Made by a program: the position numbers and the translations under genes. Below are positions 18,674-54,985 of a DNA stretch of 64,000 bases, one piece after another. The first letter of the stretch is position 1; each line of letters starts with the position of its first letter. The stretch comes from Vicinamibacterales bacterium (GTDB taxonomy: Bacteria > Acidobacteriota > Vicinamibacteria > Vicinamibacterales > Fen-181), in NCBI GenBank assembly GCA_036504215.1, contig DASXVO010000040.1:124001-188000 (forward strand). The letters are read 5' to 3'. The notes below the pieces were generated by a model. It did no database searches and was not told where the DNA came from. It worked only from the letters and a program-made list of their open reading frames with translations.

Positions 18674-18677
<4 letters not shown>

Positions 18678-20209: not shown

Positions 20210-20317
20210 TCGTCAGATAATCGTCAGGCATCCGGCCCTAATCGTCAGATGTGCGGTTGGGCTGGGCAACCAAGCTAATCGTCAGCTAACCGTCAGACGA
20301 CGCACTGAAATCGTCAG
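20207..20317 (+). promoter_or_regulatory. six-copy TAATCGTCAG operator-like array
   Basis: Six copies of a 10-base motif, all in the same direction: exact TAATCGTCAG at 20207, 20218, 20239 and 20276; TAACCGTCAG at 20287; AAATCGTCAG at 20308. Start-to-start spacings are 11, 21, 37, 11 and 21, so the three-copy set repeats with a 69-base period. 11 and 21 bases are one and two helical turns, placing the sites of each set on one DNA face. The array starts at the stop codon of the DUF4062-HTH gene and ends 29 bases before the next possible start. It is most simply an operator for that HTH protein. Confidence 0.8.
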
Positions 20318-20345
20318 ATGCCCATGCTGAGTCCGGGAGCTCGCT

Positions 20346-23890: not shown

Positions 23891-23893
23891 CCC

Positions 23894-26800: not shown

Positions 26801-27214
26801 AAGCAGATCGCGCTCCCGGATGCCGACTCATCCGGGTTGCTCGTGAGACCTGACGTCGCGCAGAAGCAGCTCGAAGCCGCCTCGCCTTCAGCCGGTCCAA
26901 CTCCGACAGGGCCAGGGCCGACGCCGCCAGGACCTACGCCTCCTGGACCGGGCCCGGCCCAACCCACACCGAAACAGGCTCCCAAGCGTTTCCATGGCTC
27001 CGTGAGGCTTGAAGCGGCTCGAGCCGGTCGTGACGCCAGCGTGATTGCCGACGAAGTGATCGCCCACCTCGCCGGTCTGGTGGGCGCGAAGGTGACCGTG
27101 ACGCTCGAAATCGAAGCCGAGATGCCAGGCGGCGCGCCGGAGACGGTGGTGCGAACGGTGACAGAGAACAGCCGGTCGCTGAAGTTCACGAGCCAAGGGT
27201 TCGAGACGGAGTAG
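23894..27214 (+). CDS. Swt1-type HEPN plus DUF499 ATPase
   Basis: An 1106-residue protein. The N-terminal 130 residues match Swt1-type HEPN: LLKAGLGPFVEREF, LLKFMWETWNDVFRRTLG, and the catalytic-like RNKWAH at 94-99. DUF499 follows: VTPHRDVASGLYQQAEFAADLW, then Walker A NFGGGKTHS (K251) and LILIDEWVAYARQL as Walker B. A Pro/Gly linker near 1000-1030 (PTPPGPTPPGPGP) leads to a small C-terminal domain. DUF499 ATPases pair with DUF1156 methylases in anti-phage operons, and the HEPN could give RNA-cleaving effector activity. It is the last gene of the module. Confidence 0.85.
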   Translation: MAITNHERVGKALDLLKAGLGPFVEREFASVYQGRAAAEAARFLGDDRLNAKRPIAEWDAAALLKFMWETWNDVFRRTLGPAERSLLSELRDHRNKWAHQQTFSSDDAYRALDSAGRLLAAVSAPQSDEIERIKMELLRLRFDEQVRSEKRKTAGIAIESATTGLLKPWREVVTPHRDVASGLYQQAEFAADLWQVHLGEGTAEYKDPVEFFRRTYLTESLKAMLSGAVRRLAGKGGDPVVQLQTNFGGGKTHSMLALYHLFSGIAPSDLPGIDVVMQAADATTLASPRRVVLVGNKISPGNPGVKPDGTVVRTLWGELAWQLGGKKAFARIQADDEKATSPGDALRELFKEYGPCLILIDEWVAYARQLHDQSDLPAGGFETQFTFAQVLTESAKLAKNCLLVISLPASDTTGSPHTQANDVEVGGQRGREALDRLRNVVGRLESSWRPASAEEGFEIVRRRLFEPLATDAQFRDRDVVARAFADFYRAQHQEFPPECRDAEYEKRIRAAYPIHPEIFDRLYADWSTLVKFQRTRGVLRLMAAVIHSLWEKGDRNPLILPANISIDETRVQFELTRYLSDNWVPVIEKDVDGPNSLPLRMDGEVPNLGKHAACRRVARTIYLGSAPTAAAAHRGLEDRRVKLGCVMPGESPAVFGDALRRLAGAATYLYQDGPRYWYSTQPTVTKLAEDRAEQLKRDPDKVVQELDQRLRRDLQHKGDFSRIHPMPQSGQDVPDDLDARLVVLGVDYAYTKEPGSAAETKARAILESRGGAPRLYRNALVVLAADKTRLQDLDEAVRRFLAWESILAEKVVLNLDPQQVKQAETQRSAADGAVTARLPETYQWLLVPVQSSPQAAIEWQAIRLSGQDPLAVRASKKLRSDELLLTGFAATRLKMELDRVPLWRGNHVAIKQLVEDFGRYLYLPRLRSSAVLTAAIQDGCGLLLWEQDSFAYADSYDEEAVRYRGLCGGKQIALPDADSSGLLVRPDVAQKQLEAASPSAGPTPTGPGPTPPGPTPPGPGPAQPTPKQAPKRFHGSVRLEAARAGRDASVIADEVIAHLAGLVGAKVTVTLEIEAEMPGGAPETVVRTVTENSRSLKFTSQGFETE

Positions 27215-29894: not shown

Positions 29895-31135
29895 GCTGGT
29901 TGGTGGCTCCAGAGGAGCTCACGCCAGACCAGAGCCGGGCCATCGCGTTGGAGCCAAGCGAGCATCGGGCGATCATCGGCGGTCCTGGTTCGGGGAAGAC
30001 CCAGATTTTGCTCTACCGGGCGCAGTTCCTGGCTCGGAAATACCACGTTCCTCCGAATCGCTTCCACATCTTCGTCTACACCAACGTCCTTAAGTCGTAC
30101 ATACGCACGGCGCTCAACTACCTGGACTTGCCGCTCGATTGCGTGTCCACACTGGACGGTTGGTGCAAGACCTATTTTCAGACCCACATCGGTGGTCGGG
30201 TGCCGTGGGACGCCCAAGCGAAGAGGCCTGACTTCGACGCCATCCGAAATGCCATCCTTCAGCGGACCTACTCGAATCTGCTGCACGAGCCGGCCTTCGA
30301 TTTCGTCCTGGTGGATGAGGGGCAGGACCTCGACCGACCTGCCTTCGAGTTGCTCTCTCGACTGAGCAAACATGTGACGGTCTGCGCGGACCGAAAACAG
30401 CAGATCTACGACCGCGGGTCCGAGGAACGGGAGATTCTGACGGCGCTCGGCCTCCGAAGCGGCAGCGTTGCCTTCCTTGACGCCTATCGGTGCTGTCCGT
30501 ACATCACACAGCTCGCCGCTTCCCTTCTAGACGACCCGGTTGAACGCACCCGCTACCTACGCCAGGTCAGGACCACCCAAACAGAACGAGAAAAGCCTCT
30601 CCTCTATCTCGCCCAGGACTTTGAGGACGAGAAGAAGCGCCTGGTTGAAATCGTGCGAAGTAGGCAGGTCAAGGGCGAGAGGATCGCGATTCTCTTTGGC
30701 GCGCAACGCCAGATCCACGGGTTTGCCAAAGGGCTTCGCGAGCAAGGCCTCGAAGTGGAGATACAGGAAGAAGCCGACTTCTCGTCGGATCTACCGAAGC
30801 TGATCACGTATCACAGCGCCAAGGGGCTGACGTTCGACACGGTGTTGCTTCCGCGGCTCGTCGGCCGTTCTTTCCCGTATCTCACGGACCGTCGGCTTGC
30901 CAGCCTGCTCTTCGTGGGCGTCACCCGCGCCGTGAAATGGGTCTACATGAGTACGACGGAAGATGGACAGCAGTTGCGTTCGGTTCTAGAACGAGTAATC
31001 CCCCTGGCGGACGGTGGAGGCCCGTTGGTAGTTCAGCGTGGTCGTGCCGCTGCCGGCATCCAGAAGTCGCTCTTTGGTTCGGGAACGCCCGATTCACGCG
31101 CGGGAGATACGGACGACATCCTGGATCCCCTATAG
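29891..31135 (+). CDS. UvrD/Rep-like SF1 helicase-type protein, compact
   Basis: A 414-residue protein with Walker A IIGGPGSGKTQIL (K36), Walker B FVLVDEGQDLD (142-146), DAYRCCPYI, then HSAKGLTFDTVLLP and FVGVTRAVKWVYM as the C-terminal SF1 motifs. It is short for UvrD (about 700 residues) because the 1B and 2B insertions are missing, so it may not unwind DNA processively. The start overlaps the Hsp70 stop (ATGA). Likely works with the Hsp70-like and DUF4011-helicase proteins. Confidence 0.82.
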   Translation: MSWLVAPEELTPDQSRAIALEPSEHRAIIGGPGSGKTQILLYRAQFLARKYHVPPNRFHIFVYTNVLKSYIRTALNYLDLPLDCVSTLDGWCKTYFQTHIGGRVPWDAQAKRPDFDAIRNAILQRTYSNLLHEPAFDFVLVDEGQDLDRPAFELLSRLSKHVTVCADRKQQIYDRGSEEREILTALGLRSGSVAFLDAYRCCPYITQLAASLLDDPVERTRYLRQVRTTQTEREKPLLYLAQDFEDEKKRLVEIVRSRQVKGERIAILFGAQRQIHGFAKGLREQGLEVEIQEEADFSSDLPKLITYHSAKGLTFDTVLLPRLVGRSFPYLTDRRLASLLFVGVTRAVKWVYMSTTEDGQQLRSVLERVIPLADGGGPLVVQRGRAAAGIQKSLFGSGTPDSRAGDTDDILDPL

Positions 31136-31142
31136 CCGCACC

Positions 31143-34100
31143 ATGGCGCAATTGACCGCAGGGAGTCGTCTTCCAGGGAACAGCAGCGAGAATCGAATGG
31201 AGCCATCCGTCAATACATACGTGGACCAGGCTCGCCAGGGCTGGATTAGAAAACTCATCGATCTGTCCAGACGCAACAACCTGCTGTACTTCCGGGACCT
31301 TCAAACGGGCACCGTCGACATCAGTTCGGCCCCGAATGGAAGCTTGGCGAGGTTGCTCGAGTGGCACGCGCCTGGCGAGGAACTCGGCTCAGTGCCGCTG
31401 CTCGACCTCGTTTCCGAGGACGACGAGAAGAGCGTCGCTGGAAAACTGCGTGACATCAAGCGTCGCACGATTGCGAACTACGAAGAACGAGGACTGGAGA
31501 CACTGTTCCTGGCCCTTGGCCTTGCGACTTGGATTCCCCGCGATGATGGTCGTCCGGCATCGGCGCCTGTGCTGTTGATGCCAGTAGACCTGACTTCGCG
31601 AGGACGCGAGGGGCGGTACTGGCAGGTCCGCCGAACGGGGGAGATCCAGGTGAATCCCGTTCTCCTCTTCGCGCTGGAAGCCGAGCACGGGCTGATAGTG
31701 ACGCCTGAGCAGATCATCAAGGAGATCCAAGGCGACGAGGAAGGCGAGGCATTCGATCTCAACCCCGCGTTTGACCGGCTTTCTGGGCTTGCCGCGAAGG
31801 TCAGCGGGTTCGCCGTCGAACGGCGATGGGTCATCGGGAACTTCTCGTTCCAGAAGATGGCCATCGTCAAGGATTTGAAGGAACGCATCGGGGAGATGTC
31901 GGGCAACGCGATCATCGCCGGAATTGCCGGCGATCCCAAGGCACGCGAACTGGCCAGGGGAATGCGGACGGAGCCAGACGCGACCAAGTTCGATACGAAC
32001 TCTCCCGAGGCAGAATTCCTGGTGCTGACGGCCGACTCGACCCAACAGAAGGCGGTTGCTGCGACGCTCAGCGGCCAAAACGGCGTGATTAGTGGCCCGC
32101 CAGGGACGGGGAAGAGCCAGACGATCGCGAACCTCATCGCCGAGTTGGCTGCGAGGGGAAAGTCCGTCCTCTTCGTAGCCGAGAAGCGAGCGGCGTTGGA
32201 CGTGGTCCTTCATCGCCTGAAGGAAGTTGGTCTACTGCACCTGTGCCTCGACCTCCATGGAGCAGATGTCTCTCGTCGCCACATTCGAGACCAGATGGCG
32301 GAGAGTCTGGAGCTGCACAGGACGACGGCCGTGCCCGACGCGGCGGAAATGCACCGCAAGTTTATGGACCGGCGTGGCCGCCTGAACGGCCACGTCAGGG
32401 CCCTACACCAACGCCGGGAACCGTGGGGTGTGAGCGCGTATCAGATTCAAGGGCAACTTCTACGGCTGCCCGCGGGCGTGAGCACGCCCGTTCGATGGTC
32501 AGAGAAGGCACTGCAAGGATTCACCAGGGAACGAGTGGAACTGATCCGCGACACGCTCCGCGAGGCAGCGGGCTTCGCGCCGTTCTTCCGTCCTGGGCAT
32601 CCCTCTCCTTGGGCGACGGCGTGGCTGCCGGATGAGCAGGCTGTCCGCACCGCAATGGAGCGGTCGACGCGACTCGCACGCGAGACGTGGCCGAGGTTGG
32701 CCGAGGCCCTGCGGAAGATGTCCGCCGCCTGCTCGCTACTTCCTCCAGCCACCTGGCGAGATCTAAGGGAGACGGTACGTCTTGTTGAGGATGTCAACGA
32801 CGTCCTCGGAGTTTACCGGCAAGAGGTCTTCGGGACCGAGTTGGACAGCCTGCTTCGTGATCTCGAGCCGTCCGCGTCGCTCGGCAGGCACATCACCGCC
32901 AGTCTGTTCAATGGCGCTTACAGGTCCGCGCGAAAACGGGCGAAGGCGCTCCGGATTGGCGGTCCGGCATCTGCCGCTGCACAACTCGAGGAGTTGGGTC
33001 GGCTTCCAGGCATCCTCGCTCGATGGAAGGCGCGGTGCTCTGGCGCCGATCTACCGACTGGTTGTGAGGCCGCCGCCTTGGTCCGACAGTGTCTCTCGAA
33101 TGTGGAAGCAGACCTGCTGCCCATGGCGGAGACATTTCCGCTCTTGGTGTTGGACCTGCTTGAGGTCTCCCCCTTGGAGGCCTGGCTAGCGATGCTGGCG
33201 GAAGATCGCGGCACACCATTCCAGCGATTCCGGTGTTGTCAGCTTGAGATTGTTCTTCGCGGCAACGACGCAGGCTGCCTCCTTCCGCACCTCCGAAATC
33301 CGAAGTCCGATCCGGCGAAGTGGCCCGATTTGTTCCAGCATGCCTGGCTCTCTTCATGCCTGGAAGCGATCCACATCAAGGAACCCGGACTGGCGGGGTT
33401 CAACGGTAGAACGCACGAGCAGTTCGTCAGCGAGTTTCGTCAGTTGGACGAGGAACGTATTCGGACCGCGGTCGCGAGAGTACGACGGGCGTGTGCGGAG
33501 AAGGCGATTGAGACACGAAACCTGCACTCGGACCAGGACGCGATCGTCTGCCGAGAGGCACAGAAGAAGTCCAGACATCTACCGCTGCGTACCCTGTTCG
33601 CCCAGGCTCCGGAGGTGCTGCTGGCACTGAAGCCCTGTTGGATGGCCAGTCCGCTGTCGGTGAGTCAGTTGCTCCCAGCCGAACGGCCCTACTTCGACGT
33701 GGTCCTCTTCGATGAGGCGAGCCAGGTGCTTCCCGAAGACGCCGTGGCCTCGCTCTTGCGGGGGCGCCAAGCCGTTGTAGCTGGAGACAAGCACCAACTC
33801 CCGCCCACCACCTTCTTTGCGACCGGTACCGGGGACGACGAGAGCGGCGACGAGGCCGGAGCGACCGAGGGCTTCGAGAGCATCCTTGACCTCATGTCGT
33901 CGTTTCTCGAGCCTCCCTGGTCGTTGGACTGGCACTACAGGAGTCGCGACGAGTCACTCATCGCCTTCTCCAACCACCACATCTACGGCGACCGCCTGGT
34001 GACGTTTCCGGGTCCTGGTGTCGCGTCTTCGATTTCGCACGTCTTGGTAAACGGCTCAGGGCGAGAGGGCGAAGAAGAGAGTTGCAGCGCCGAGGTAAGC

Positions 34101-35219
34101 AAGATCATCGGAATGGTCCTGTGGCACGCCGAACACCGGCCATTCGAATCACTCGGCGTCATCACCATGGGCATCAAGCACGCCCAGCGGCTGGAGGCGG
34201 CCCTGGATAAGGCCCGTCAGTCCAGACCCGACTTGGACGAGTTCTTCAACCCGGAGGCTGCCGAACGCTTCTTCGTGAAGAACCTGGAGCGTGTTCAGGG
34301 CGATGAGCGGGACGCTATCATCCTGAGCATCGGCTACGGAAAGGACTCGTCTGGTCGCCTGCCGTATCGATTCGGCCCGCTGCTCAGCCAGGGTGGTGAG
34401 CGGCGGCTGAACGTCGCTATTACCCGAGCGAGGAAGAGCCTGGCGTTGGTCTCCTCGTTCTCCCATCTCGATATGGCCCCCTCGCGTAGCAAGGCGAAGG
34501 GGGTGGAGCTTCTGCGCGCCTACCTGGAATACGCGTCGAGTGGCGGCAGCCGGCTGGGCGGAGACGGCAGCCGAGAGGTGCCTCTGAACGACTTCGAGCA
34601 GGCGGTCTTCGACGCACTGACCGCCCACGGCGTGAAACTGCTTCCGCAATACGGCACGTCTTGCTACCGCCTCGATATGGTCGCCCAGCATCCGCGGCAG
34701 GAAGGGCGTCTCGTGTTGGCCATCGAGTGTGACGGCGCGACCTACCACTCAGCGCCGACGGCCCGGGATCGAGACCGACTCCGCCAACAGCACCTGGAGG
34801 CGCTTGGCTGGAACTTCCACCGCATCTGGTCGACCGACTGGTTCATGCGTCAAGACGAGGAGATCCAGCGGACGATGACCGCGTACGAGCGGGCGGTTGA
34901 GCGTGCGGACCGCGGCGGAGGCGGGCTGCCACAGCCCGCTCCGGGGAACGGAAGGCCAAAGGAACCTGAGGAACCCACACCTGGCAATAGTGTGCAGGAA
35001 CGTTCGCCTCGACCTTCCATTGCTCGCAAAGCGAACATCGCGGAGTACTCCGATGGTGACCTTCGCCGACTCCTGAAGTGGATTCTGGAAGGCGAGTTGC
35101 TCACGGACGACGAAGTTGTCGAGCGAGCGGTTGGGGAACTGGGATTTCAACGACGTGGCAGCCGGATTGAAGCGGCGCTTCGGCGAGTCATACCGGAGGC
35201 TCGAAGGGCTCTACGGTGA
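31143..35219 (+). CDS. DUF4011, SF1 helicase and Vsr-like endonuclease (Hhe-like)
   Basis: A 1358-residue protein. DUF4011 is at the N-terminus (GWIRKLIDLSRRNNLLYFRD). The SF1 helicase has Walker A GPPGTGKSQTIANL (K324), VVLFDEASQVLPEDA (857 on), GDKHQLPPT, and late RLNVAITRARKSL. A Vsr/MTES_1575-type nuclease follows near 1195 (AIECDGATYHSAPTARDRDR, then FHRIWSTDWF), with a DUF3320-like tail (LLKWILEGELLTDD). The DUF4011-helicase-Vsr order is that of the Hhe anti-phage protein. ATG 31143 lies 7 bases after the UvrD stop; an in-frame ATG at 31197, beginning MEPSVNTYV, is an equal candidate because DUF4011 starts only after it. Confidence 0.86.
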   Translation: MAQLTAGSRLPGNSSENRMEPSVNTYVDQARQGWIRKLIDLSRRNNLLYFRDLQTGTVDISSAPNGSLARLLEWHAPGEELGSVPLLDLVSEDDEKSVAGKLRDIKRRTIANYEERGLETLFLALGLATWIPRDDGRPASAPVLLMPVDLTSRGREGRYWQVRRTGEIQVNPVLLFALEAEHGLIVTPEQIIKEIQGDEEGEAFDLNPAFDRLSGLAAKVSGFAVERRWVIGNFSFQKMAIVKDLKERIGEMSGNAIIAGIAGDPKARELARGMRTEPDATKFDTNSPEAEFLVLTADSTQQKAVAATLSGQNGVISGPPGTGKSQTIANLIAELAARGKSVLFVAEKRAALDVVLHRLKEVGLLHLCLDLHGADVSRRHIRDQMAESLELHRTTAVPDAAEMHRKFMDRRGRLNGHVRALHQRREPWGVSAYQIQGQLLRLPAGVSTPVRWSEKALQGFTRERVELIRDTLREAAGFAPFFRPGHPSPWATAWLPDEQAVRTAMERSTRLARETWPRLAEALRKMSAACSLLPPATWRDLRETVRLVEDVNDVLGVYRQEVFGTELDSLLRDLEPSASLGRHITASLFNGAYRSARKRAKALRIGGPASAAAQLEELGRLPGILARWKARCSGADLPTGCEAAALVRQCLSNVEADLLPMAETFPLLVLDLLEVSPLEAWLAMLAEDRGTPFQRFRCCQLEIVLRGNDAGCLLPHLRNPKSDPAKWPDLFQHAWLSSCLEAIHIKEPGLAGFNGRTHEQFVSEFRQLDEERIRTAVARVRRACAEKAIETRNLHSDQDAIVCREAQKKSRHLPLRTLFAQAPEVLLALKPCWMASPLSVSQLLPAERPYFDVVLFDEASQVLPEDAVASLLRGRQAVVAGDKHQLPPTTFFATGTGDDESGDEAGATEGFESILDLMSSFLEPPWSLDWHYRSRDESLIAFSNHHIYGDRLVTFPGPGVASSISHVLVNGSGREGEEESCSAEVSKIIGMVLWHAEHRPFESLGVITMGIKHAQRLEAALDKARQSRPDLDEFFNPEAAERFFVKNLERVQGDERDAIILSIGYGKDSSGRLPYRFGPLLSQGGERRLNVAITRARKSLALVSSFSHLDMAPSRSKAKGVELLRAYLEYASSGGSRLGGDGSREVPLNDFEQAVFDALTAHGVKLLPQYGTSCYRLDMVAQHPRQEGRLVLAIECDGATYHSAPTARDRDRLRQQHLEALGWNFHRIWSTDWFMRQDEEIQRTMTAYERAVERADRGGGGLPQPAPGNGRPKEPEEPTPGNSVQERSPRPSIARKANIAEYSDGDLRRLLKWILEGELLTDDEVVERAVGELGFQRRGSRIEAALRRVIPEARRALR

Positions 35220-35985: not shown

Positions 35986-37671
35986 ATGGAAGTCTTCGGC
36001 ATCGATTTCACCAGCCGTCCATCTCGTTCAAAGGCGATTACGTGCGCGGGATGCCAGTTTGACGGTGATCGCTTGGTCGTCGAGGACCTTCAGCGACTGG
36101 AGTCCCTCGATGCGTTCGGTGCCTTCCTCGATTCACCTGGACCATGGATTGCTGGCATCGACTTCCCGTTTGGCCAGCCTCGCCGCCTTATCCAGAATCT
36201 GAACTGGCCCGGTTCCTGGGCCGGCTACGTTGCGCAGGTTGCGGGCCTGTCGCGCGAGGGATTTCGGAACGTCCTCGAAGACTACAAGCGTGACCGGCCG
36301 GAGAACGATCGGGAGCACCTTCGGCTCGTAGACCGCCTCACCGGGGCGCAAAGCCCGTCGAAACTCTATGGTGTCCCCGTCGCATTGATGTTCTACGAGG
36401 GTTCGCAGCGGCTCTTGAGAAGCGCGACATGTGTCATTCCGGTTCGCCCCACAACGGACGACCGAGTCGTCGTTGAGGCGTACCCTGCTCTGGTCGCTCG
36501 AACGCTCGTGGGAAAGGACCGGTACAAGCCGGCCGAACCAGGGGATGTGCAGGCAGTTGCGCGCGCCGTGCGCGAGCGAATCGTTCAGAAGCTCGGTGAC
36601 GGCTCGCTCTTCGGCCGGTACAAGATCAGAGTCGAATTGACCGAGCGCGTCCGCCGGGCATGCGCCGACGATACCGATGGTGATTCGCTCGATGCCGTGC
36701 TCGCGGCCATACAGGCTGCCTGGGCTTGGGTGCGGCGCACCGACGGCTACGGCGTGCCGGAGGACTGCGATCTTGTTGAAGGCTGGATCGTCGATCCGGT
36801 GACGCAGCCGAGCGTCAACAGTTCTATAACCCGCGTCCGCCCCGTCTTTCGGCGGCTGTTCGGGATGGATCCGACCGGAGCGTCCTGGCTGCCCAAACTT
36901 CTGCGGCTTTCCAAGTCGGACGTGTCAGGGAGGATGCTGTCCGAGCCTGGCACAGTGCTCCCGGCGGTCAGCGAGAAGCGGCCGTACGCCGACCCTGTCC
37001 AGGGGAACATCGAGTTGGAACGCTGCTTTGAGTTCTCCGTAGTCCCGGGGGCGTCGTTCTTGCGTTGGCTGATACAGAACCCTGATCGGCTCACATGGCC
37101 CGGGCCTGACGGGCGCCGTGTGAGCTACAGTGCGACAACCCAGGAGCGTCGTGAGGAGCTCGTTGGGCTCAAAGGTCATTCCGCGAGGATCAAAAGCCAG
37201 GCTGCCGCGATGGGCGCCCTCGACCGTTACGGCCCAGAGAAGTCCGGCCGTAAGTGGTGGGCCTTTGAAGGGTTCACGGAAGTGGATTGCTGTATTGAGA
37301 CCGACCAGATCGCTCTACTGGTTGAGGGGAAGCGAACAGAGAGCCTCGCCGAGTCCACAGCCTGGTACGCCGGCAGGAACCAGCTGCACCGGAATCTGGA
37401 GGCTGCCCGCGACCTGGCGGCCGGTCGCGAATTCGGTGTGTTCATCATCGGCGAGTACGGCCTTCCTGACCAAGCCCTGGGCGACCCACGCGGCGGCCTA
37501 CCTCACCTGAATGATGCCGAGCGCGCAGAGTTGATGACGCATTACTTGGGATGCCTGCGGTGGTCTCAAGTCTGCGAAGTGACTGGAATTGACCCGGCGT
37601 CGTTGCCGAGGAATGTCGCTCGCCGTGTGAAACGGGCACGAGTTCGATCGGAGCGCGAATACACTCCTTGA
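35986..37671 (+). CDS. DUF429 fused to a PD-(D/E)XK-like nuclease domain
   Basis: A 561-residue protein. Residues 1-270 fit DUF429, an RNase H-like fold: FGIDFTSRPS at the start, WIAGIDFPFGQPR, and VVVEAYPALVAR, with a helical part ending DSLDAVLAAIQAAW. Residues about 410-540 look like a PD-(D/E)XK nuclease: FEGFTEVDCCIETD (D434) and then LLVEGKRTE (E447, K449), followed by a helix with WYAGRNQLHRNLEAA. These residues fit an active site. DUF429 alone is widespread and uncharacterised; the fusion I do not recognise as described. It stands as a single gene between two defence operons. Confidence 0.72.
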   Translation: MEVFGIDFTSRPSRSKAITCAGCQFDGDRLVVEDLQRLESLDAFGAFLDSPGPWIAGIDFPFGQPRRLIQNLNWPGSWAGYVAQVAGLSREGFRNVLEDYKRDRPENDREHLRLVDRLTGAQSPSKLYGVPVALMFYEGSQRLLRSATCVIPVRPTTDDRVVVEAYPALVARTLVGKDRYKPAEPGDVQAVARAVRERIVQKLGDGSLFGRYKIRVELTERVRRACADDTDGDSLDAVLAAIQAAWAWVRRTDGYGVPEDCDLVEGWIVDPVTQPSVNSSITRVRPVFRRLFGMDPTGASWLPKLLRLSKSDVSGRMLSEPGTVLPAVSEKRPYADPVQGNIELERCFEFSVVPGASFLRWLIQNPDRLTWPGPDGRRVSYSATTQERREELVGLKGHSARIKSQAAAMGALDRYGPEKSGRKWWAFEGFTEVDCCIETDQIALLVEGKRTESLAESTAWYAGRNQLHRNLEAARDLAAGREFGVFIIGEYGLPDQALGDPRGGLPHLNDAERAELMTHYLGCLRWSQVCEVTGIDPASLPRNVARRVKRARVRSEREYTP

Positions 37672-38074
37672 TGGAAACGTCTCCAGATGCCGTGACGCTG
37701 CGCCCGAAGGCAGGTTTCCGTGCGTCGCCGGCTAAGGTCAGATGCCCGATTCCGCTAACATCGCCGCAGCCAACCCCCTTGGTGAAAGACGCGGATCGGT
37801 TCCGAATGGACGTCCCGCCTGTGACCCACCCTGTCAGACGGCTCGGATACGGTTCCAATGAGGCCGCGAACGACTCCCATCGCAGCCAATCGACGGAGTC
37901 GTACTGCGCGTTGTGCGTATTGCGGATTCTCGCGGCCTACCGGAAGGCAATCCTGAGACCGACACTTGGGATAACCAGGTTCTCGACTAAGAAGTCGGCG
38001 AACGCCCGATAGTCGATGCGCCGGGCTGACCAACTTGCGCGTTGGAAGGCCGTTCTTCAGACGACGTGTGGCAC
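37672..38074. other. intergenic region, no gene seen
   Basis: An open frame covers most of it (37668-38012) but has no family resemblance and an uneven composition. A small hairpin CGACT-AAGA-AGTCG lies at 37984-37997. It likely carries the promoter of the following trio; no clear -35/-10 pair is seen. Confidence 0.35.
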
Positions 38075-39376
38075 ATGACAATTTCCCTTCCGTTCCTCAC
38101 GAGTTACGACCCGCCGGGCACGAGCGAGGGGTCGTTGGATCCGCTCGGTCTCTATCAGATTGCCGACCAGCTCGCGACGTTGTTGGTCCCCGCTGTGCGC
38201 GAGCGCATGCAGCGCATCCGGTTCCTGACCGCGATGGCAGTCGGCGCCCTAGTCTGCGAGGGACTTGACGACGACCCTGGGAAGCGCGACGCGTCACCCT
38301 ATCTTGTCTGGGAGTGGTTGGTCGTCGAGGCGCTTATCTGTCACGGCGCCGGCAGCGGCGCAATTTGGGGCGTCCCGGGTACGCTGGTCGCCCGGCGGAC
38401 TCGGGGACAGCACGGGTACCTCGACGCTCGCAGCTACTTGAAGACGCCGCGGATCTTCGGATTCCACGGAGTCTATAAGCGGCTGGCGACGCACCTCGGG
38501 CTGGTGGACGTTCACCTTGGGTCCGGGCCGGACGCTGAGGGGTTGGTGGACGCCTGGGCGCGCGACCGAGGTCTGGGACGCTTCGAAGACGCCCGGAAGA
38601 CGGTTGTCAAGAAATGGTCGAAGGCCGTGGAGCGAAGCCTGGCCGAGGCGCCGCCGCGGACGAAGCCTGGATGGGACACGGAGGCTTGGCAGGAACTGGC
38701 CACGGCGTTCGACCCGTCCGGGTGCCGGGCGCGCGAGAAGCGGTGGTTGCGCGACGCGTTGACGGCCGGCGGCGAGCGCCGGCTCGGAGCGTTGCCGACT
38801 ATCTGGAGCCTACAGGCTGACGCACAGGATGACGAGTTGCCGGAGGAGACGCTCCACGACCGGCTGGAGACACAAGAGCCATCATACGGGCCGTTGCTGG
38901 CGGCCATTCGCGCCTACGAGGGCTTCGCAAGGCATCTCCAGGATGCGTTCGACGTACTGAAGGCCGACGCGTCGCGTCAGGACGCGAGCGGTTACGTCGT
39001 CCCGAACATCGCCAGTGACGCGGACTTCAAGCAGTGCGTTAGCGGCCTCGACAGGCGGTTCGAGACAGCGCATCGCACATTGGGGAATGTCATCCTTGCG
39101 AACGCCCCGCTCCAGAGCCTGTTCCACCGGCGGTTTGCGGCTTTCGGCGAACCGACGGATCCCGAGCGGTGCGCCCTCCTGCTGTGCTCGCATCACGAGG
39201 CCGTTCAGCGAGCAAAATCGGCGGAGGGCAAGCGGCCTTGGTTCGACCGAATCGGGCCGGAGCGCATCTCTGTCCGCCACGCGTACCGGGAAGAACCGAG
39301 GGAACTCCGGCTCGATCGCTATCTGCACACCTATCGCGGCCGGCCGGTCCGCCAGTTCTACGGGGACCTGACATGA
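38075..39376 (+). CDS. hypothetical protein of the PLD/SNF2 trio
   Basis: A 433-residue protein not matched to a known function. It opens ISLPFLTSYDPPGTSEGSLD, then IADQLATLLVPAVRERMQRIRFLTAMAVG. It continues helical, with a conserved-looking W-x-x-x-E segment (YLVWEWLVVEALICHG). The C-terminus is rich in W and Y (LDRYLHTYRGRPVRQFYGD). No catalytic motif is seen. ATG 38075 is used because the family-like opening begins there; the frame continues 11 codons upstream from a TTG. The stop overlaps the PLD gene (ATGA), so it acts with the next two genes, perhaps as a recognition subunit. Confidence 0.6.
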   Translation: MTISLPFLTSYDPPGTSEGSLDPLGLYQIADQLATLLVPAVRERMQRIRFLTAMAVGALVCEGLDDDPGKRDASPYLVWEWLVVEALICHGAGSGAIWGVPGTLVARRTRGQHGYLDARSYLKTPRIFGFHGVYKRLATHLGLVDVHLGSGPDAEGLVDAWARDRGLGRFEDARKTVVKKWSKAVERSLAEAPPRTKPGWDTEAWQELATAFDPSGCRAREKRWLRDALTAGGERRLGALPTIWSLQADAQDDELPEETLHDRLETQEPSYGPLLAAIRAYEGFARHLQDAFDVLKADASRQDASGYVVPNIASDADFKQCVSGLDRRFETAHRTLGNVILANAPLQSLFHRRFAAFGEPTDPERCALLLCSHHEAVQRAKSAEGKRPWFDRIGPERISVRHAYREEPRELRLDRYLHTYRGRPVRQFYGDLT

Positions 39377-41475
39377 GCAAACGTAACGGGACATCGACCA
39401 GTAGCGGTGCCATGCTCGACCTGTGGAGGCCTCCGAACGATGCGGGCGATCCCGTCGGGTGCCTGGCCACGACCTACACGTTTACTCCTGGGCTGTTCGA
39501 CGAACAGTGCCTGGCGCGGTTCCTGGACATCGACTCGGAGCCGAATCGTGAAGACCTCGCCTTCCTTCTCGAACGGGAACGCCAACTCGATCGCCGCTAC
39601 GCCGGCGTCCTTGTCGATCACACTCAGGCTGGCGTTGAGCATTCGCTGCGGTGGGACGTGCTCCCGGTTCGAATCCGGGCCGGCAAGCAGCACGCTAAGC
39701 TGAGCCTTCTGGCATGGAGTCAGCGCATCCGGGTCATCGTGACATCGGCCAACGTGACCGACCCCGGCTATCGTTTCAACCATGAAGTCTCGGCGTCTGT
39801 TGACCTGACGCCAGGCGATGCCGACCTCGACATTCTCGGTCAGGCGATCGAGTTCCTCCGAAGCCTCGTGTCGCTCGTTCAAGGCGCTTCCGTGAATCCA
39901 CCGGAGGTCGTCCGAGCGCGAGGTTTCTTGGACGACCTAGAACGGCAGACGCGGAAATGGAAACACCCGTCGCGACGGACGACCGTGCGGCAGCAGCTCG
40001 CCTGCACATTGCCAAGGGTCGAGGCTGACGGTACCGGACGGAGCAGCCTTCAAGAATCGATCGACGCGTGCCGGCGTCGAGGAGGGTCACCGACCGAGGT
40101 TCGGGTCGCATCTCCGTTCTTCGACGTGGGCGACGAGAGCGGCAGGGTGACCGCGGAGCTGTGCAAGGCCATGGCGCGTGGAGCGAAGCGCCAGGTCTTC
40201 TTCTCCGTGCCGTCCGTTCACAACGACGAAGCACCCGGCCTGCCGCGACTTGCGGCCCCGAGGACGCTTCTGACAATTCCGCCGAAGTACGCCGCCGAAG
40301 TGACGGTGGAAATCCTGCCGGAGACGGACCAGGACAAGAACCCGCGACCGTGGCACGCGAAGATGCTCTCACTGCGGGCGGACGGTTACTTCGCGTTGAT
40401 GATCGGTTCCTCCAACTTCACCTGTGCGGGCATGGGCGTTGGGCATTACCGAAACGCCGAAGCGAACCTGCTGAGCATTGCCGACAGCGTTGACTACGGA
40501 CGCGACACCGGGCGGCTCGAGGCGGTGTGGCCCGACGTCGAGGAAGTGGACAACCCGGAGATGGCGGAGTGGCTGGGTGTGCGTCCCCCTGAGGGCGAGA
40601 AAGCAAAGGCTCCGGTTGTGCCTGACGGCTTCCTGGCGGCGACCTACTGCGCGGGCGACACTCGCCAGATCGTACTGCGATTCGAGCCGGACCTCCTTCG
40701 AGATGACTGGGCGATTCACGCCTGCGGGCGTCATGAGCGGGAATTGCTGGCGGCGTCGAAGTGGGTCGCCTCAGGTCGTAGACGCGTCGAGACGGTCAAG
40801 TGGCAGCCAGTGGAGCCACCGGACCGGCTGCTGGTTCGTTGGGGCGGATGCGGGGCGTATTTGCCCCTGAACGTCGAGGACAGCCGGCACCTGCCACCTC
40901 CCTCGACGTTGCAGAACATGACCGCAGACGACATGCTCCTGATTCTGGCAGCGAGCGATCCCAGCGCGGCTATCCGCGGGTGGATTGGGCGCGGAAGCCC
41001 AAACGACTACGAGGGCGAACTCGATTCAGCCACGCCCATCGACCTGGACCCCCTTCGCCGCTACGACCTACAGGCAACCTTCCTCCACCGCATTCGCCGG
41101 CGCGCGCGTGTGCTCGCCCAACTCCGCGAGAGTCTGCAGCGGCCTGTATGGGGTCGGCAGGGCCTCGATTGGCGTCTGCGCGGCTTGATCGGCGTCGAGG
41201 CATTGGCCGATCGTCTCTTTGGTGAGTTCAAGGCGGCGGACGGTCGAGTAGACGAGGCGTTGTTGACGCTCGCCGACTTGCTGATCGTGCTTCGCGAAGT
41301 GGACTACACGGCGACCGAGACCTCGCTGTCGAGAGCTGAGTTCAACAATGTGTTCCTGGAATTCCTGCGGGAGCTCGTGGAGAAGCTGGACAAACAGCTC
41401 GGGGACCTGCCTCACCAGACCTCTCTGGAGGTGATGGCCTTCTGGAAACGAGTGGTGGAAAGATGCGCGAACTGA
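39373..41475 (+). CDS. phospholipase D-family nuclease with two active-site motifs
   Basis: A 700-residue protein with two PLD motifs. Copy one is IRAGKQHAKLSLLAW (H107, K109) with SAN (N127) soon after; copy two is RPWHAKMLSLRADG (H328, K330) followed by GSSNFTCAG (N348). The HxK plus N pairs form one active site in PLD nucleases. The C-terminal third is unassigned. PLD nucleases sit beside helicases in DISARM (DrmC) and in other restriction-like systems. It overlaps the previous gene by 4 bases and the helicase by 13. Likely a DNA nuclease loaded by the helicase. Confidence 0.8.
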   Translation: MSKRNGTSTSSGAMLDLWRPPNDAGDPVGCLATTYTFTPGLFDEQCLARFLDIDSEPNREDLAFLLERERQLDRRYAGVLVDHTQAGVEHSLRWDVLPVRIRAGKQHAKLSLLAWSQRIRVIVTSANVTDPGYRFNHEVSASVDLTPGDADLDILGQAIEFLRSLVSLVQGASVNPPEVVRARGFLDDLERQTRKWKHPSRRTTVRQQLACTLPRVEADGTGRSSLQESIDACRRRGGSPTEVRVASPFFDVGDESGRVTAELCKAMARGAKRQVFFSVPSVHNDEAPGLPRLAAPRTLLTIPPKYAAEVTVEILPETDQDKNPRPWHAKMLSLRADGYFALMIGSSNFTCAGMGVGHYRNAEANLLSIADSVDYGRDTGRLEAVWPDVEEVDNPEMAEWLGVRPPEGEKAKAPVVPDGFLAATYCAGDTRQIVLRFEPDLLRDDWAIHACGRHERELLAASKWVASGRRRVETVKWQPVEPPDRLLVRWGGCGAYLPLNVEDSRHLPPPSTLQNMTADDMLLILAASDPSAAIRGWIGRGSPNDYEGELDSATPIDLDPLRRYDLQATFLHRIRRRARVLAQLRESLQRPVWGRQGLDWRLRGLIGVEALADRLFGEFKAADGRVDEALLTLADLLIVLREVDYTATETSLSRAEFNNVFLEFLRELVEKLDKQLGDLPHQTSLEVMAFWKRVVERCAN

Positions 41476-44375
41476 CCGACATGTACGCGCCCCCAGACGA
41501 GCTGGTTCTCGGCACCCGGATCAACAGACGGGTCCCCCTCGTAGAGCAGAAACGCCAGCGCAAGGAGGTTGTGGCCATCCTCGCGCGCCTGCGTAACCGG
41601 CCCGGCGTCGTCCTTGCCGACGAGGTGGGCATGGGCAAGACGTTCGTCGCGCTCGGAGTCGCCTACAGCGTCGCTATGCGCAGTCCCGCCGGGCCCGTGA
41701 TCCTCATGGTGCCCGCCAACCTCGTGGACAAGTGGGAGCAGGACCTCAAGACGTTCTGCGAGTTGTACCTCGACGGCAGACTCGCAGTGAGCCGCGACCT
41801 CGCGTCGCGTCAGGAATTGCTCGATGGTACTAGCCTGCGCTACGGCATCGCCAGGCATAGCGTGGAGCTGCTAAAGCTGCTCGACGACAGGCCCCGGGAG
41901 CGGTGTCACTTCATCTTCGTCGCCCAGGGTGCGATGGGCCGGCAGCAGACGGACAAGTGGGTGCGCTTGGCCCTGATCGCGGAAGCGTTGCGCCGACATG
42001 GACGAGGCAGGGCGAGCCGGCTCATTCAGGTGAAGGAGCAGATTCATCGCTACCTCGGAGAACTCCTATGGGCTCTCGGCGAAGAGCGCGCGCACGATGG
42101 TGGCGAGACGCTGTGGAAAAGGCTCTTGCAGACCGACCCGCAGGCGTGGAAGGACATCTACAACAGCGCCGTTCGGGAAGACCGGCGGCTCAACGACGAT
42201 CCGGTGCCGAAGGCGGTGACGCGAGCGATGGCTCGCGTCGACCTGAAAGCGCTGGCCGAAGCGCTCGAACAGATGCCGGTCCGAGCGCGCGGCGGGAAAG
42301 ATCGCGTCACGGAACGACTGACCGCGACGCGCGTCGCACTCCGGAAGGTTGAAGAAGCGCTCTGGAAGCCGGTTCTCATGGAGGCTCGATGGCGCTCGTC
42401 TCTGCTCGTGATGGACGAGGCGCACCATCTCAAGAACCCGGGGACGCGCCTCGCGCGACAGCTCCAGGATCCCGAGTCGGAGAAGGACCTGCGCACCGGG
42501 GACGGTGCCATGGCACGCGCGTTCGACAGGATGCTGTTTCTGACGGCAACGCCGTTCCAGCTCGGCCACCATGAACTGGTGAACGTCCTGGTCCGATTCG
42601 GGGACGTGCGTTGGGACCCACGTCAGCTAGGCGAACGGCAACAGTTCGCCGAGCAGCTCGAGATCCTTCGAAGTCGCCTCGACGACAGCCAGCGGACCGC
42701 CATCGGGTTGCAGCGAGCGTGGAGCCGTCTCCGGCCGGAGGACTGCGACGCGGATGTTGACGCCTGGTGGCTGCGTCTGTGCCGTTCCGATCGCGAATCG
42801 CTGAACCACCATCAGCGCGCTGTTGTGGACGCGTTTGTCGCCGCTAAGCGGTCACGCGATGCTGCGGAAGAGGCCTTGCGGCCCTGGATCGTGCGTCACA
42901 ACAAGGGGAACCATTGGGCGGGCACGACGATTCCGCGGCGCGCGAGGATGAACGGTGGCGCCGTGGTCGGCGTGGCGGGATCGACGGGGCTTCCCGTGCC
43001 TCCCCAGCAGATGCTGCCGTTCTTCCTTGCCGCACGAAGCGCGGTGAGGCCCGGCCAGGATCTTCTGGGCGAGGCGTTGTCCTCGTCATACGAGGCCTTC
43101 CGCAAGACGCGTGAGGACAGGAAGGTGGTTCGGGACGATCAGGAGGTGCCGCCGGAGACCGTCGTCGATCTGTCGCAGGCCAAGTGGTACCTGAGTGAGT
43201 TCGATCGCGCCTTGGAAGAGTGCTCAGGCGTCGCGCATCCCAAGGTGAACGCAACGGTCAGAAAGGTGGTTGATCTCTGGGAGTCCGGTGAGAAGGTGCT
43301 GGTCTTCGCCTTCTATCGGCACACGTGTCGCGCCCTGCGCATCCATATTAGTCGCGAGGTCGAGCGCCGAATCAACGAAACGGCCCGGCAGCGCCTTGCC
43401 GTGGTCGGGCGCCAGCCGAGCGACAAGGAGATAGAGCGGCTGCTCGAGCGGGTCCAAGGGCGCTTCTTCGACGATAGCGATTCTCCAGGGCGAAAGGCGA
43501 TCGACCGTTGCCTCCGCGAGATTCTCGTGGCTCACAATCGCGGGCTCCGGAAGGCGCGGGTATCGGCAGATCAGCGGGGCGTTCTAACGGAAGTCATGCG
43601 ACGGTTCCTCCGCGTGCCGACCACGCTCGTCAGGTGCTTCCCGCTAGGCGAACTGGAGACGCTCCAGCCTGCCGAGGCCGTTGCCGCGATGCTCGAGTAC
43701 CAGGACGGCTCCGGAGTGTCGTGGCGTGCCAAGTTCAACTACTTCATCGAGTTCTTGACCGAACAGTGTTCCACGAACGAGCGTGACCTCTACCTGGGAG
43801 CCGCGAAGCACACTCAGACCGGCGGCATTCGCGTCGAAGATCAGGACGACGAAGACCCTGACGGCGAACGAGGGACCGTGCTCCTCGCCAACGTCCAGGT
43901 GGCGACCGGCGCCACGAAGCGCGACGCGCGTAGCCGCTTGATGCGCGCTTTCAACACGCCCTTCTTTCCAGACATTCTCGTCTGTAGCCAGGTGATGGGC
44001 GAAGGCGTGGACCTCCAGCGGTTCTGCCGCCACGTGATCCATCACGATCTGGCGTGGAATCCGAGCACCATCGAGCAGCGGACAGGACGGATCGACCGCA
44101 TCGGGTGCAAGGCGGAGGGTCGGCAGCCAATCGTCGTGTACCTGCCGTACCTGGCCGGCACCGCCGACGAGCGGCAGTACCAGGTGATGTCGGAGCGGGA
44201 GCAGTGGTTCCGGGTGGTGATGGGCCAATATGAGGTGGCGAAGCTCATCACCCCAGAATCGGCGAACGCTGTGCCGCTGCCCGAGGCGATCTCGACCGAG
44301 CTGACTTTCGAACTGGGCCTGTCCGTTCAAGATGCGAAGACGAGCCGCCAGGTGCCGGCGAAGTCGGGGGGATAG
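41463..44375 (+). CDS. SNF2-type helicase of the PLD trio
   Basis: A 970-residue SF2 helicase. Walker A is VLADEVGMGKTFVAL (K59), DEAH box MDEAHHLKNPG at 317, FLTATPFQLG as motif III, and motif VI near 872 (IEQRTGRIDRIG). Long insertions lie between 140-290 and 440-620. No nuclease domain is added, so the PLD partner likely supplies cleavage. The GC-rich start overlaps the PLD stop. This trio has the layout of a restriction-like anti-phage system of the PLD plus SNF2 type. Confidence 0.85.
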   Translation: MRELTDMYAPPDELVLGTRINRRVPLVEQKRQRKEVVAILARLRNRPGVVLADEVGMGKTFVALGVAYSVAMRSPAGPVILMVPANLVDKWEQDLKTFCELYLDGRLAVSRDLASRQELLDGTSLRYGIARHSVELLKLLDDRPRERCHFIFVAQGAMGRQQTDKWVRLALIAEALRRHGRGRASRLIQVKEQIHRYLGELLWALGEERAHDGGETLWKRLLQTDPQAWKDIYNSAVREDRRLNDDPVPKAVTRAMARVDLKALAEALEQMPVRARGGKDRVTERLTATRVALRKVEEALWKPVLMEARWRSSLLVMDEAHHLKNPGTRLARQLQDPESEKDLRTGDGAMARAFDRMLFLTATPFQLGHHELVNVLVRFGDVRWDPRQLGERQQFAEQLEILRSRLDDSQRTAIGLQRAWSRLRPEDCDADVDAWWLRLCRSDRESLNHHQRAVVDAFVAAKRSRDAAEEALRPWIVRHNKGNHWAGTTIPRRARMNGGAVVGVAGSTGLPVPPQQMLPFFLAARSAVRPGQDLLGEALSSSYEAFRKTREDRKVVRDDQEVPPETVVDLSQAKWYLSEFDRALEECSGVAHPKVNATVRKVVDLWESGEKVLVFAFYRHTCRALRIHISREVERRINETARQRLAVVGRQPSDKEIERLLERVQGRFFDDSDSPGRKAIDRCLREILVAHNRGLRKARVSADQRGVLTEVMRRFLRVPTTLVRCFPLGELETLQPAEAVAAMLEYQDGSGVSWRAKFNYFIEFLTEQCSTNERDLYLGAAKHTQTGGIRVEDQDDEDPDGERGTVLLANVQVATGATKRDARSRLMRAFNTPFFPDILVCSQVMGEGVDLQRFCRHVIHHDLAWNPSTIEQRTGRIDRIGCKAEGRQPIVVYLPYLAGTADERQYQVMSEREQWFRVVMGQYEVAKLITPESANAVPLPEAISTELTFELGLSVQDAKTSRQVPAKSGG

Positions 44376-44712
44376 ACGCACCCACAATCGCTCGCGCGAT
44401 ACGACCGCGAGCCGCTTTACGGCGAGGGTCTCGTCTGGACCGGCCCAGAAGGTGGCGGCGCGACGTCGTCTCCGGCATGTTCAGCCGCGCCACGCCGCGA
44501 TCACGACTCGCGCACTACAATGACTACGGTGTCCGGGCGCTGCGAGTGAATTTGCTACTCGCGCGCGATGCGCGGATAATTCGCTCGGGCGCGGCGTCTC
44601 TGGAGGCGCCCCCACCAGGGAGCTGACGACCAGAACCGGCCATCACAAGAAACCAGCCAACGACCGAGTGAGCCGTGACCGGCCAAGCGCACTCCGCGGC
44701 GACGAGAACCTT
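44376..44712. other. intergenic region before the qat operon
   Basis: About 340 bases without a supported gene. A likely promoter and inverted repeat in it are listed separately. A GTG-started extension of qatA from 44668 is possible but poorly supported, because QatA family members begin near the WPDNETADDLIGF segment. Confidence 0.4.
44542..44580 (+). promoter_or_regulatory. qat promoter with overlapping inverted repeat
   Basis: TTGCTA (44552-44557), 17 bases, then GATAAT (44575-44580) is a good sigma70-type pair, about 130 bases before the qatA start. GCGAGT and ACTCGC (44542-44547 and 44557-44562) form an inverted repeat around the -35 box, in a position where a repressor could block polymerase. 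Confidence 0.5.
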
Positions 44713-46659
44713 ATGTGGCCCGACAACGAAACCGCCGACGATCTGATTGGCTTCCAGGTCCACGCCGACCTCGTTCGCGCGGTGGTCCTCAACCCCAAGT
44801 TGTTGCCTGTTACCGTAGGCGTGTTCGGCGACTGGGGCGGGGGCAAGACGAGCATCATGCGGATGCTCGAGCACGGCCTGTCGCCCGAGTCCTGGGAGAA
44901 GGGGAGTCTGGAGGCCATCCAGTGCGAAGGGACAGCCGTCGTTTATGTCAACACCTGGGAGTTCGAAGGCTACGACGACGCAAAGGCGGCGATCCTGAGC
45001 GCCGTCCTGCTGCAGCTCCATGAGCATCAGCGATTCGGTGCAAAGGTTCGTAAGAACGCCCTTAGACTCCTCAAGGGCATCAACGCAATGCGCCTCGTGC
45101 GGCTTTCCTTCAAATATGCAGTGCTCCCGGCGGCCGCCGCAGCTATGACAGGCGGCGCGGCGGCGGTGCCCGCTGCGGTGCTCGCGGCCTCAGGCCTGAG
45201 CCAGTTCTTCGCTGCAGGTGGGAAGTCCGAAGGGGAGCCCGAGACTCCGGCGCTCGATGATTCCGGCGAGCTGTGGAAGGGACTGCCCAAGGACGAAGCG
45301 ATTGATGTGCGGACGTTCAGAAGGGAATTTGCCACGCTGCTGGCCGAGGCGAAGATCGAGTCGCTCGTCGTCCTGATTGACGACCTTGACCGTTGCTCCC
45401 CGGACCGCATCGTCGAGAATCTCGAGGCCGTCAAACTGTTTCTGAGCGTGAAGAATACAGCCTTCGTCATCGGCGCTGACCGCCGCATAGTGGAGCATGC
45501 GATCCGCTCTCGTTACGCGCGTCCGGTATCACACGGCGGCGACGAAGCGCGCCGAGCGTCGGCGCTCGCTGCGGAAGATCAGCTGGTGCGCGACTACCTT
45601 GAGAAACTGGTCCAGGTGCCGTACGCGATTCCGCGGCTATCCGCGGCGGAGATTGAAACGTACATGACGCTGCTCTTTTGCAGCGTGCACTTGAAAGACG
45701 AGGATGCAGGCCTTTGCGTGAAGGCAGCGCACGCAGCGCGCAAAGCCAATCGTTACGGGGCATTCGGCTACGGCGGCGTCTGGCAGGCGTTGTCTGGCAA
45801 CGTCCCGAAACCTCTGGCCTCGCATCTTGCTCTCGCAGTCGCCGCAAGCCCGCTCATGGCGGATGGGCTGAAGGGAAATCCGCGTCAGGTGAAAAGGTTT
45901 CTGAACGCGCTGATGCTGCGCAAGGAGCTCGCCAGCGTCGCTGGCCTCGACCAGACGATCGAGACGAATAAGCTGGTGAAATTGATGATTCTCGAGTACG
46001 TCGAGCCCGACCTGTTTGTTGATCTGTTCAACAGGATCAATGCCGACGGCCACGTCGAAATCCTTGAGATTGTGGAGAACCAAGGCCGCGAGCCCGCGAA
46101 GGCGAAGGTGAAGGACACGGCGAAGGATCTCCTGCCGGGCTGGTCGAAGGCGTGGACAACGAGGTGGGCCGCGATGGAACCATCGCTGGTCCGCACGGAC
46201 CTTCGGGATTACTTTTGGGTCTCGCGCGACCGGCTGGAGTCGACGTTCTCCGGTATCACGATGGTGCCGCCGATCGTACGCGCAGTGATCGGTGACTTTG
46301 CCACTGGTCTAGCGCCAAAGCGCAATCAAGCAGTCGCGACGGCGAAGACGCTCGGGGCCGACGAACGTGCTGTCATGTACCAGTTACTTGAACGGGAGAT
46401 TGCGGTACGACCGGCGGATCTCAAATCCTACGAGCCGCTGCGAGCGCTGACTGAAGCGGACGTGGACGGTGCGGCGGCCACTCTCGCCCGGGTGCTGACC
46501 AACACTCCAGCGCCCGAGATGCCGGGTACCTTGGGCCTGTGGACCGTAACGCTGCTCAAGAACAAGCCGGCCTATCGCGATGTGCTCGGACCGGCAGTCG
46601 ATCAGCTGCGCGGAACCGACACCACGGTCGGCAAGGCGATTGACACAGCGAACGAGTAG
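44713..46659 (+). CDS. qatA: KAP-type P-loop ATPase, QatA
   Basis: A 648-residue KAP-family ATPase. Walker A is GVFGDWGGGKTSIMRML (K45), Walker B VVLIDDLDRCSPD (about 223), and between them an insertion with two hydrophobic stretches (AAAAAMTGGAAAVPAAVLAA) that is common in KAP proteins. PYAIPRLSAAEIETYM and GNPRQVKRFLNALMLR follow as KAP hallmarks. In Qat the ATPase works with QueC-like and TatD-like partners against phages. ATG 44713 fits the family start; the longer GTG form from 44668 is less likely. Confidence 0.9.
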   Translation: MWPDNETADDLIGFQVHADLVRAVVLNPKLLPVTVGVFGDWGGGKTSIMRMLEHGLSPESWEKGSLEAIQCEGTAVVYVNTWEFEGYDDAKAAILSAVLLQLHEHQRFGAKVRKNALRLLKGINAMRLVRLSFKYAVLPAAAAAMTGGAAAVPAAVLAASGLSQFFAAGGKSEGEPETPALDDSGELWKGLPKDEAIDVRTFRREFATLLAEAKIESLVVLIDDLDRCSPDRIVENLEAVKLFLSVKNTAFVIGADRRIVEHAIRSRYARPVSHGGDEARRASALAAEDQLVRDYLEKLVQVPYAIPRLSAAEIETYMTLLFCSVHLKDEDAGLCVKAAHAARKANRYGAFGYGGVWQALSGNVPKPLASHLALAVAASPLMADGLKGNPRQVKRFLNALMLRKELASVAGLDQTIETNKLVKLMILEYVEPDLFVDLFNRINADGHVEILEIVENQGREPAKAKVKDTAKDLLPGWSKAWTTRWAAMEPSLVRTDLRDYFWVSRDRLESTFSGITMVPPIVRAVIGDFATGLAPKRNQAVATAKTLGADERAVMYQLLEREIAVRPADLKSYEPLRALTEADVDGAAATLARVLTNTPAPEMPGTLGLWTVTLLKNKPAYRDVLGPAVDQLRGTDTTVGKAIDTANE

Positions 46660-46662
46660 CCG

Positions 46663-47388
46663 ATGGGGACGTCAACCAGCTATAGCGCGCCGGGATCGTG
46701 GGGACCGCTGAAGCGGGAAGTGACGGCGGCCGCCAATGAGGGAGCTGCGAGCGCGGCAACCGCCGGGCGCATCATCGGTCATTTCATTCAGGCAAATGGC
46801 GGGCCTGCTGGTATGAGCAGCAGTGCCGGTTCCGGGGGCACGATCGGCGGCAGCGCCGGGAGCGCAGTCGCGCGGCGCCTCGGCGGCTTCATTAGCGCCG
46901 TCGCCGCAGTCGGCCTTGCCGAAGCGTTGCGGCGCGAAGGCCTCGCCGATCTTGTAGGAAGACCGGTTCAGGAAATACTGGCAGCGCTCATCGACCGACT
47001 CGGCGGATCAGCCAGCACGATCGACGACGTAGATGCGCGCACGGCGCTCGCGCGCCTTCAGGAGGAACTTCTCAAAGACGCGCAGACGCCCGACCAGCTT
47101 GAGCGGATTCTCCAAGAGCAACCCGCGAACCTCGATGTCGTGCTGCGCGACTATTTCGGCTTATATCTATTCGAGCAGTTCTGCCGCGTGTTCTTCGAGC
47201 GGCTCGTGCAGAAGAAGGGCGAGTCGAAGGCGCTCGCATTTCTCGACGACATCAGGGAGTTCATCAAGGCAACACTCATCAACCGAGTGGGTCGTCGCGT
47301 CATCTCGACAATCCAGTGGGCGGCACAGGAAGGCGCCAAGCTCTGCGCCGACATCATGCAGGCCACACTTGCCGTGTTCGTGACGTGA
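46663..47388 (+). CDS. qatB: QatB
   Basis: A 241-residue protein starting MGTSTSYSAPGSWGPLKREV, the opening of QatB. It is followed by a Ser/Gly-rich stretch (GMSSSAGSGGTIGGSAGS), then helices (VGLAEALRREGLADLVGR; LDVVLRDYFGLYLFEQFC). QatB has no known catalytic function. It lies 3 bases after qatA, and its stop overlaps the qatC start (TGATG). Confidence 0.88.
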   Translation: MGTSTSYSAPGSWGPLKREVTAAANEGAASAATAGRIIGHFIQANGGPAGMSSSAGSGGTIGGSAGSAVARRLGGFISAVAAVGLAEALRREGLADLVGRPVQEILAALIDRLGGSASTIDDVDARTALARLQEELLKDAQTPDQLERILQEQPANLDVVLRDYFGLYLFEQFCRVFFERLVQKKGESKALAFLDDIREFIKATLINRVGRRVISTIQWAAQEGAKLCADIMQATLAVFVT

Positions 47389-48740: not shown

Positions 48741-48742
48741 AC

Positions 48743-54885: not shown

Positions 54886-54985
54886 GCTTCCGCACTCGCG
54901 ACCTCTTCGTTCGGTTGCTGTCTCCAGCAATGACGAATTCAAGCCTGAAGGGAACGAAGCGCGCGCCCATGCCAGGGAAACTGAA

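Follow-up and report, generated by a model that had tools for sequence, protein, structure and literature searches.

Does a single gene in this window (the whole 64-kb stretch of DNA that was analysed) encode a protein with two different nuclease-type domains, and what would such a protein do among the defence systems that surround it? The ORF in question starts with ATG and encodes 561 amino acids. The frame itself and the positions of D434, E447 and K449, which lie within WAFEGFTEVDCCIETDQIALLVEGKRTES...WYAGRNQLHRNLEA of the protein, were found to be as the earlier note had given them. In the note's reading, an RNase H-like DUF429 is followed in one chain by a PD-(D/E)XK-like domain whose D-E-K set is complete, and this was borne out by a Pfam match and by two structural models. 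Coordinates of the gene, its parts and its neighbours are collected in Table 1.

Table 1. Features of the fusion gene and of the island around it (positions in the window).
Feature	Coordinates	Strand	Basis
Fusion gene, DUF429 (RuvC/RNase H fold) + PD-(D/E)XK-like domain	35986..37671	+	ORF, domain and coding-signal evidence
DUF429 half, residues 1-271	35986..36798	+	Pfam, conserved columns, model, RuvC-type matches
Short junction VTQPSVN	36799..36819	+	Sequence; ends of stand-alone families
C-terminal PD-(D/E)XK-like domain, residues about 278-555	36817..37650	+	Family, model, fold matches
D434 codon	37285..37287	+	Sequence and C-family alignment
E447-G448-K449 codons	37324..37332	+	Sequence and C-family alignment
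HmaABC system with accessory genes	15096..27214	+	Domain and PADLOC scans
Upstream neighbour: DUF4011/AAA/MTES_1575 helicase-nuclease, PDC-S37/ProA-like	31038..35219	+	Domain and PADLOC scans
Downstream three-gene unit: 444 aa protein, PLD protein, SNF2 helicase	38042..44375	+	Domain, PADLOC, recurrence
QatABCD	44668..49483	+	PADLOC and family scans
Gabija GajA + GajB	54857..58568	+	PADLOC scan

The junction between the two halves was compared with the ends of their stand-alone relatives. Stand-alone DUF429 proteins stop soon after EGWIADP and stand-alone relatives of the C-terminal (C) half start just ahead of NSSITRVRP; the fusion protein bridges to the C half by about 7 residues. Within this bridge the sequence GTGA (36799-36802) has the form of a four-base stop/start overlap and sits just where a stand-alone DUF429 gene would end and a stand-alone C gene would begin. 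It is consistent with a coupled two-gene operon in which a single base, either an error in the sequence or a very recent change, has merged the two adjacent genes into one frame. The coding signal argues against such an origin, being continuous over the junction: third-position G+C is of coding type on both sides (0.71 for DUF429 and 0.72 for C), with no break between them. A small ORF at 37671-38012 was considered as a partner gene and rejected, its codon-position G+C not being coding-like. Scans for promoters and terminators gave results at chance level only, and no tRNA or Rfam family was found in the whole 64-kb window.

The DUF429 half was identified by a PF04250 match over residues 5-247 (E 2.8e-8; 34.2 bits against a Pfam gathering cut-off of 23). 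A model of this domain, built from 28 sequences, had a mean pLDDT of 91.6 and a pTM of 0.92. In the structural comparison the first 8 rows were all RuvC-type Holliday-junction resolvases (Z 7.8-8.5), with phage terminase nucleases and Cas9/Cas12 among the entries below them; the Foldseek matches were weak, the best of them (E 4.6e-2) being a resolvase. D7, D59, E164, D233 and D236 are invariant in the 28 rows and are all present in the fusion protein. The model places D7 in strand 1, D59 in strand 4, E164 in strand 5, and D233 and D236 in the last long helix, whose D-x-x-D-A pattern we take to be reminiscent of RuvC. The modelled DUF429 half has a fold of RNase H/RuvC type, and its acidic residues are conserved. 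This agrees with published work: PMC3985635, from 2014, assigns DUF429, within the RNase H-like superfamily, to the clade (D) that also contains RuvC, Tex and terminases, and names its fusions to NUDIX and RelA/SpoT domains.

The earlier note had also held that DUF429 alone has no known role. The literature contradicts this: beside the superfamily placement (PMC3985635), RNase HII activity through the DUF429 domain has been reported for RelZ (MSMEG_5849) of Mycobacterium smegmatis (PMC4429107), and for the same protein cleavage of RNA:DNA hybrids and R-loops and the removal of R-loops, including under UV stress, have been reported (PMC7591505). The domains of RelZ are each reported to be inactive in isolation and to need each other (PMC7591505); RelZ-type activity may therefore not transfer to the fusion protein. 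RelZ, with its reported R-loop removal under UV stress (PMC7591505), is also a precedent for regarding the fusion protein as an enzyme of host housekeeping or stress response: a repair protein of DUF429 RNase H/RuvC type that gained a second nuclease domain and would act on the cell's own R-loops or replication intermediates, its place in the island being incidental.

The C half comprises an N-terminal part of its own, roughly 120 residues long, and a nuclease-like core. Its model, built from 7 sequences, had a mean pLDDT of 78.8 and a pTM of 0.79. In the predicted secondary structure D434 (model residue 162) falls in strand 159-166 and E447 (model 175) in strand 170-176, with K449 (177) directly next. 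The structure prediction that the earlier note had proposed was run for both domains and gave nuclease-type folds, so that the outcome named there as refuting, a model lacking such a fold, did not arise; in the C model the strands of D434 and E447 adjoin each other, and K449 lies close to E447 in the chain. The helix said to follow the motif is present as well; it begins at Q466 (model 194-206), so that W460 and R464, which had been counted into it, lie upstream.

The top structural rows for the C domain were VC1899, NucS/EndoMS, AF1548, Can2, Can1 and BspD6I, with Z 5.1-5.5 for the first 8, and Hachiman, Avs3/Avs4, Lamassu, McrBC and MspJI appeared lower down; Z ranged from 3.2 to 5.5 over the 50 rows listed. 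We recognise the top rows as PD-(D/E)XK nucleases. A Z of about 5 can come from a common arrangement; the PD-(D/E)XK reading carries weight because nearly all rows belong to one superfamily and because the motif sits in the right strands. Foldseek gave no significant match (best E 4.4e-3), and against a viral structure library the first row was annotated as a PD-(D/E)XK nuclease (E 5.2e-3). By sequence, the C half had no match above cut-off in Pfam or NCBIfam, which lowers only the claim of membership in a named nuclease family, and nothing meaningful among PDB chains; the fusion gene matched none of the PADLOC models at E 0.01. In the model, the C half is a PD-(D/E)XK core fold with D and E-x-K in the strands of a hairpin.

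The C half exists elsewhere as a conserved stand-alone family. An alignment of 22 distinct relatives, fusion protein included, was used to follow the catalytic-type residues in the 21 that cover the site (G227 matches the profile start only). E447 is kept in all 21, D434 in 17 and K449 in 11, the remaining ten having R, Q, T, W or A at the lysine position. Copies L004, L005, L006 and L081, all of genus g6, lack both D434 and K449 and are likely, from these substitutions, to be inactive; the copy in G868 is split over two frames. With K449 missing from 10/21 relatives, catalysis is not a constant of the whole family; several lineages appear to have lost it, whereas the fusion copy has these residues intact. 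Such losses, which fall in two or more lineages of the tree in addition to the four copies without D434, show that parts of the family persist with an incomplete set, and would suit a regulatory or binding protein in which only one site is active and the other domain binds nucleic acid. The fusion copy itself keeps all conserved residues of both sites, and we regard a binding role for one of its domains as unlikely.

A search for further fusions, also proposed in the earlier note, came back empty in the 44 related loci and in the 161 other genomes of the order. The whole-protein scan of genome contigs from 84,980 species returned those 44 loci, 37 with DUF429 only, 7 with the C half only and 0 with both. 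Nine genomes of relatives searched whole gave the same separation (6 with the C half only, 3 with the DUF429 half only, none with both). Within the order, matches came from 13 of the 162 genomes searched: 1 fusion, which is the copy described here, 2 of DUF429 type and 10 of C type. The fusion was seen in a single copy, and no description of a DUF429 + PD-(D/E)XK architecture was found in the literature searches. The absence of other fusions agrees with the joining of two adjacent genes by one base; no related locus contains an adjacent pair of DUF429 and C genes, which together with the unbroken coding signal makes such a joining quite improbable in our view.

The C family is rare. Its profile matched 10/396 genomes of the phylum, 1/296 of the Gaiella phylum and 4/132 of the Zixibacteria phylum, and the genomes with members belong to Acidobacteriota, Zixibacteria, WOR-3 and Actinomycetota. 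No relative of either half was found among viral contigs or phages. Plasmids gave no match to the C half or to its distant relative L060; the DUF429 half matched 9 Sinorhizobium plasmid records, none of them with a fusion. When 16 C sequences were placed in a tree, those of the order formed a supported clade that the fusion copy does not join; the forks around it are unresolved, and its position suggests lateral arrival. A host housekeeping or stress enzyme would not be expected to show this pattern: the gene is sporadic (none of 6 same-genus or same-family genomes has a match at E 1e-5, and the fusion occurs in 1/162 genomes of the order), and its C half lies apart from the order's own supported C-family clade.

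The neighbours of the stand-alone relatives were then scanned. No neighbour recurred beyond close relatives, either beside the stand-alone C genes or near the 30 placed DUF429 genes (36 loci). PADLOC matched 23 families, each with one member, among 49 neighbours of C genes, and 61 families among 89 neighbours of DUF429 genes, where the 25 listed have 1 or 2 members; both sets had been trimmed by hand (48/62 listed plus one more gene for C, 89/118 for DUF429). Stand-alone C relatives are not consistently within defence islands, and some stand-alone relatives lie beside ordinary genes, prolyl oligopeptidase for example. The lack of recurrent neighbours and these ordinary surroundings are consistent with a host enzyme.

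DUF429 was also found with many other partners. Another Pfam domain is carried by 4/6 DUF429 proteins tested with Pfam, these six having been chosen for their long frames. One relative, 44% identical to the DUF429 half described here, is fused to DUF433 (L084:8116-9252, in G928), and the ORF after it starts with a DUF5615 PIN-like domain, giving a toxin-antitoxin-like pair with DUF429 attached. A HepT-like-DUF429 fusion (L096:1435-2646, minus strand) and a DUF2442-DUF429 fusion (L103:1417-2568, minus strand) were seen as well, these and the DUF433 fusion being from the taxonomic order to which the fusion gene belongs. A Nitrospina protein joins DUF429 to GAF, HisKA and HATPase domains (L040:4205-6484), and by eye further long frames continue beyond DUF429 as sequence resembling OsmC or cysteine synthase. 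Several of the partners of DUF429 are toxin-antitoxin-like. Since the domain is so promiscuous, a single fusion is weak evidence on function. The earlier note had taken the fusion as a possible pointer to defence; the many partners of DUF429 and the lack of recurrent neighbours of the stand-alone halves weaken this, and what stands in its favour is the position of the gene.

The fusion gene lies in a run of defence systems, which follow each other on the plus strand in the order HmaABC, DUF4011 helicase-nuclease, fusion gene, PLD/SNF2 unit, QatABCD and GajAB. Upstream of the ProA-like gene, an Hsp70-TPR protein overlaps a short UvrD/GajB-like helicase (27459-31135), and at 51983-54835 an ankyrin-repeat protein stands beside a REase-ARP domain protein, with no PADLOC match. 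The PLD/SNF2 unit, the nearest one downstream, recurs in G944 and G946, where its first protein has about 60% identity and where the fusion gene is absent from it. The possibility that the fusion gene is part of this Zac-like unit was rejected for that reason; the unit is self-contained in both genomes, and the fusion gene is thus a separate unit. The three genes are only loosely like the ZacB/ZacC and DISARM models and possibly form an undescribed defence system; their first protein had no match among plasmids.

The fusion gene is most likely cargo of the defence island that stands on its own, and it is this island position that suggests a defence role. A location inside a run of defence systems also speaks against a host housekeeping or stress enzyme that came to lie there incidentally, an explanation we consider somewhat unlikely. 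Tentatively, and as a possible rather than a probable reading, we favour a single-chain nuclease with two different metal-dependent sites, DUF429 and PD-(D/E)XK, that would serve in defence. In such a protein both sites would be active and would cooperate. The DUF429 domain would recognise and nick a hybrid or branched nucleic acid (an RNA:DNA hybrid, an R-loop or a junction), the PD-(D/E)XK domain would cut DNA nearby, and invading or replicating foreign DNA would be destroyed as the outcome. A more specific form, in which this single-gene defence nuclease would attack R-loops or replication branches in invading DNA and cut both strands there, as a protein-only counterpart of the pairing of RuvC with a second nuclease in IscB and Cas9, is very doubtful.

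Among known systems, RuvC-type Holliday junction resolvases are the closest solved folds of the N-terminal domain (Z 7.8-8.5), and the acidic residues of this domain stand at places that we presume to be equivalent to the RuvC motif. They differ in sequence (8-16% identity in the top 8 rows), strand 4 of DUF429 is followed by a large insertion of helices, and the domain is fused here to a second one. VC1899, Can1/Can2, NucS/EndoMS and AF1548 share with the modelled C half a core in which the D lies on one strand of a hairpin and the E-x-K on the following strand; unlike them, the C half has no sequence link to Pfam, NCBIfam or PDB chains, and no CARF domain was found in it. IscB, Cas9 and the RRXRR-HNH architecture, the last as given in PMC3985635, likewise combine a RuvC-fold nuclease with a second, unrelated nuclease. 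There the second nuclease is HNH, whereas here it is PD-(D/E)XK-like, and Rfam gave no match in the window. RelZ, also called MS_RHII-RSD, has the same plan, one chain in which an N-terminal DUF429/RNase HII-type domain is fused to another enzyme; that other enzyme is a (p)ppGpp synthetase and not a nuclease, and the available parts of PMC4429107 and PMC7591505 describe no defence role for it. Beside these systems, the fusion gene is a new architecture of known superfamilies together with an uncatalogued nuclease-type family, and it joins to that family, within a defence island, a domain for which R-loop cutting has been reported in RelZ.
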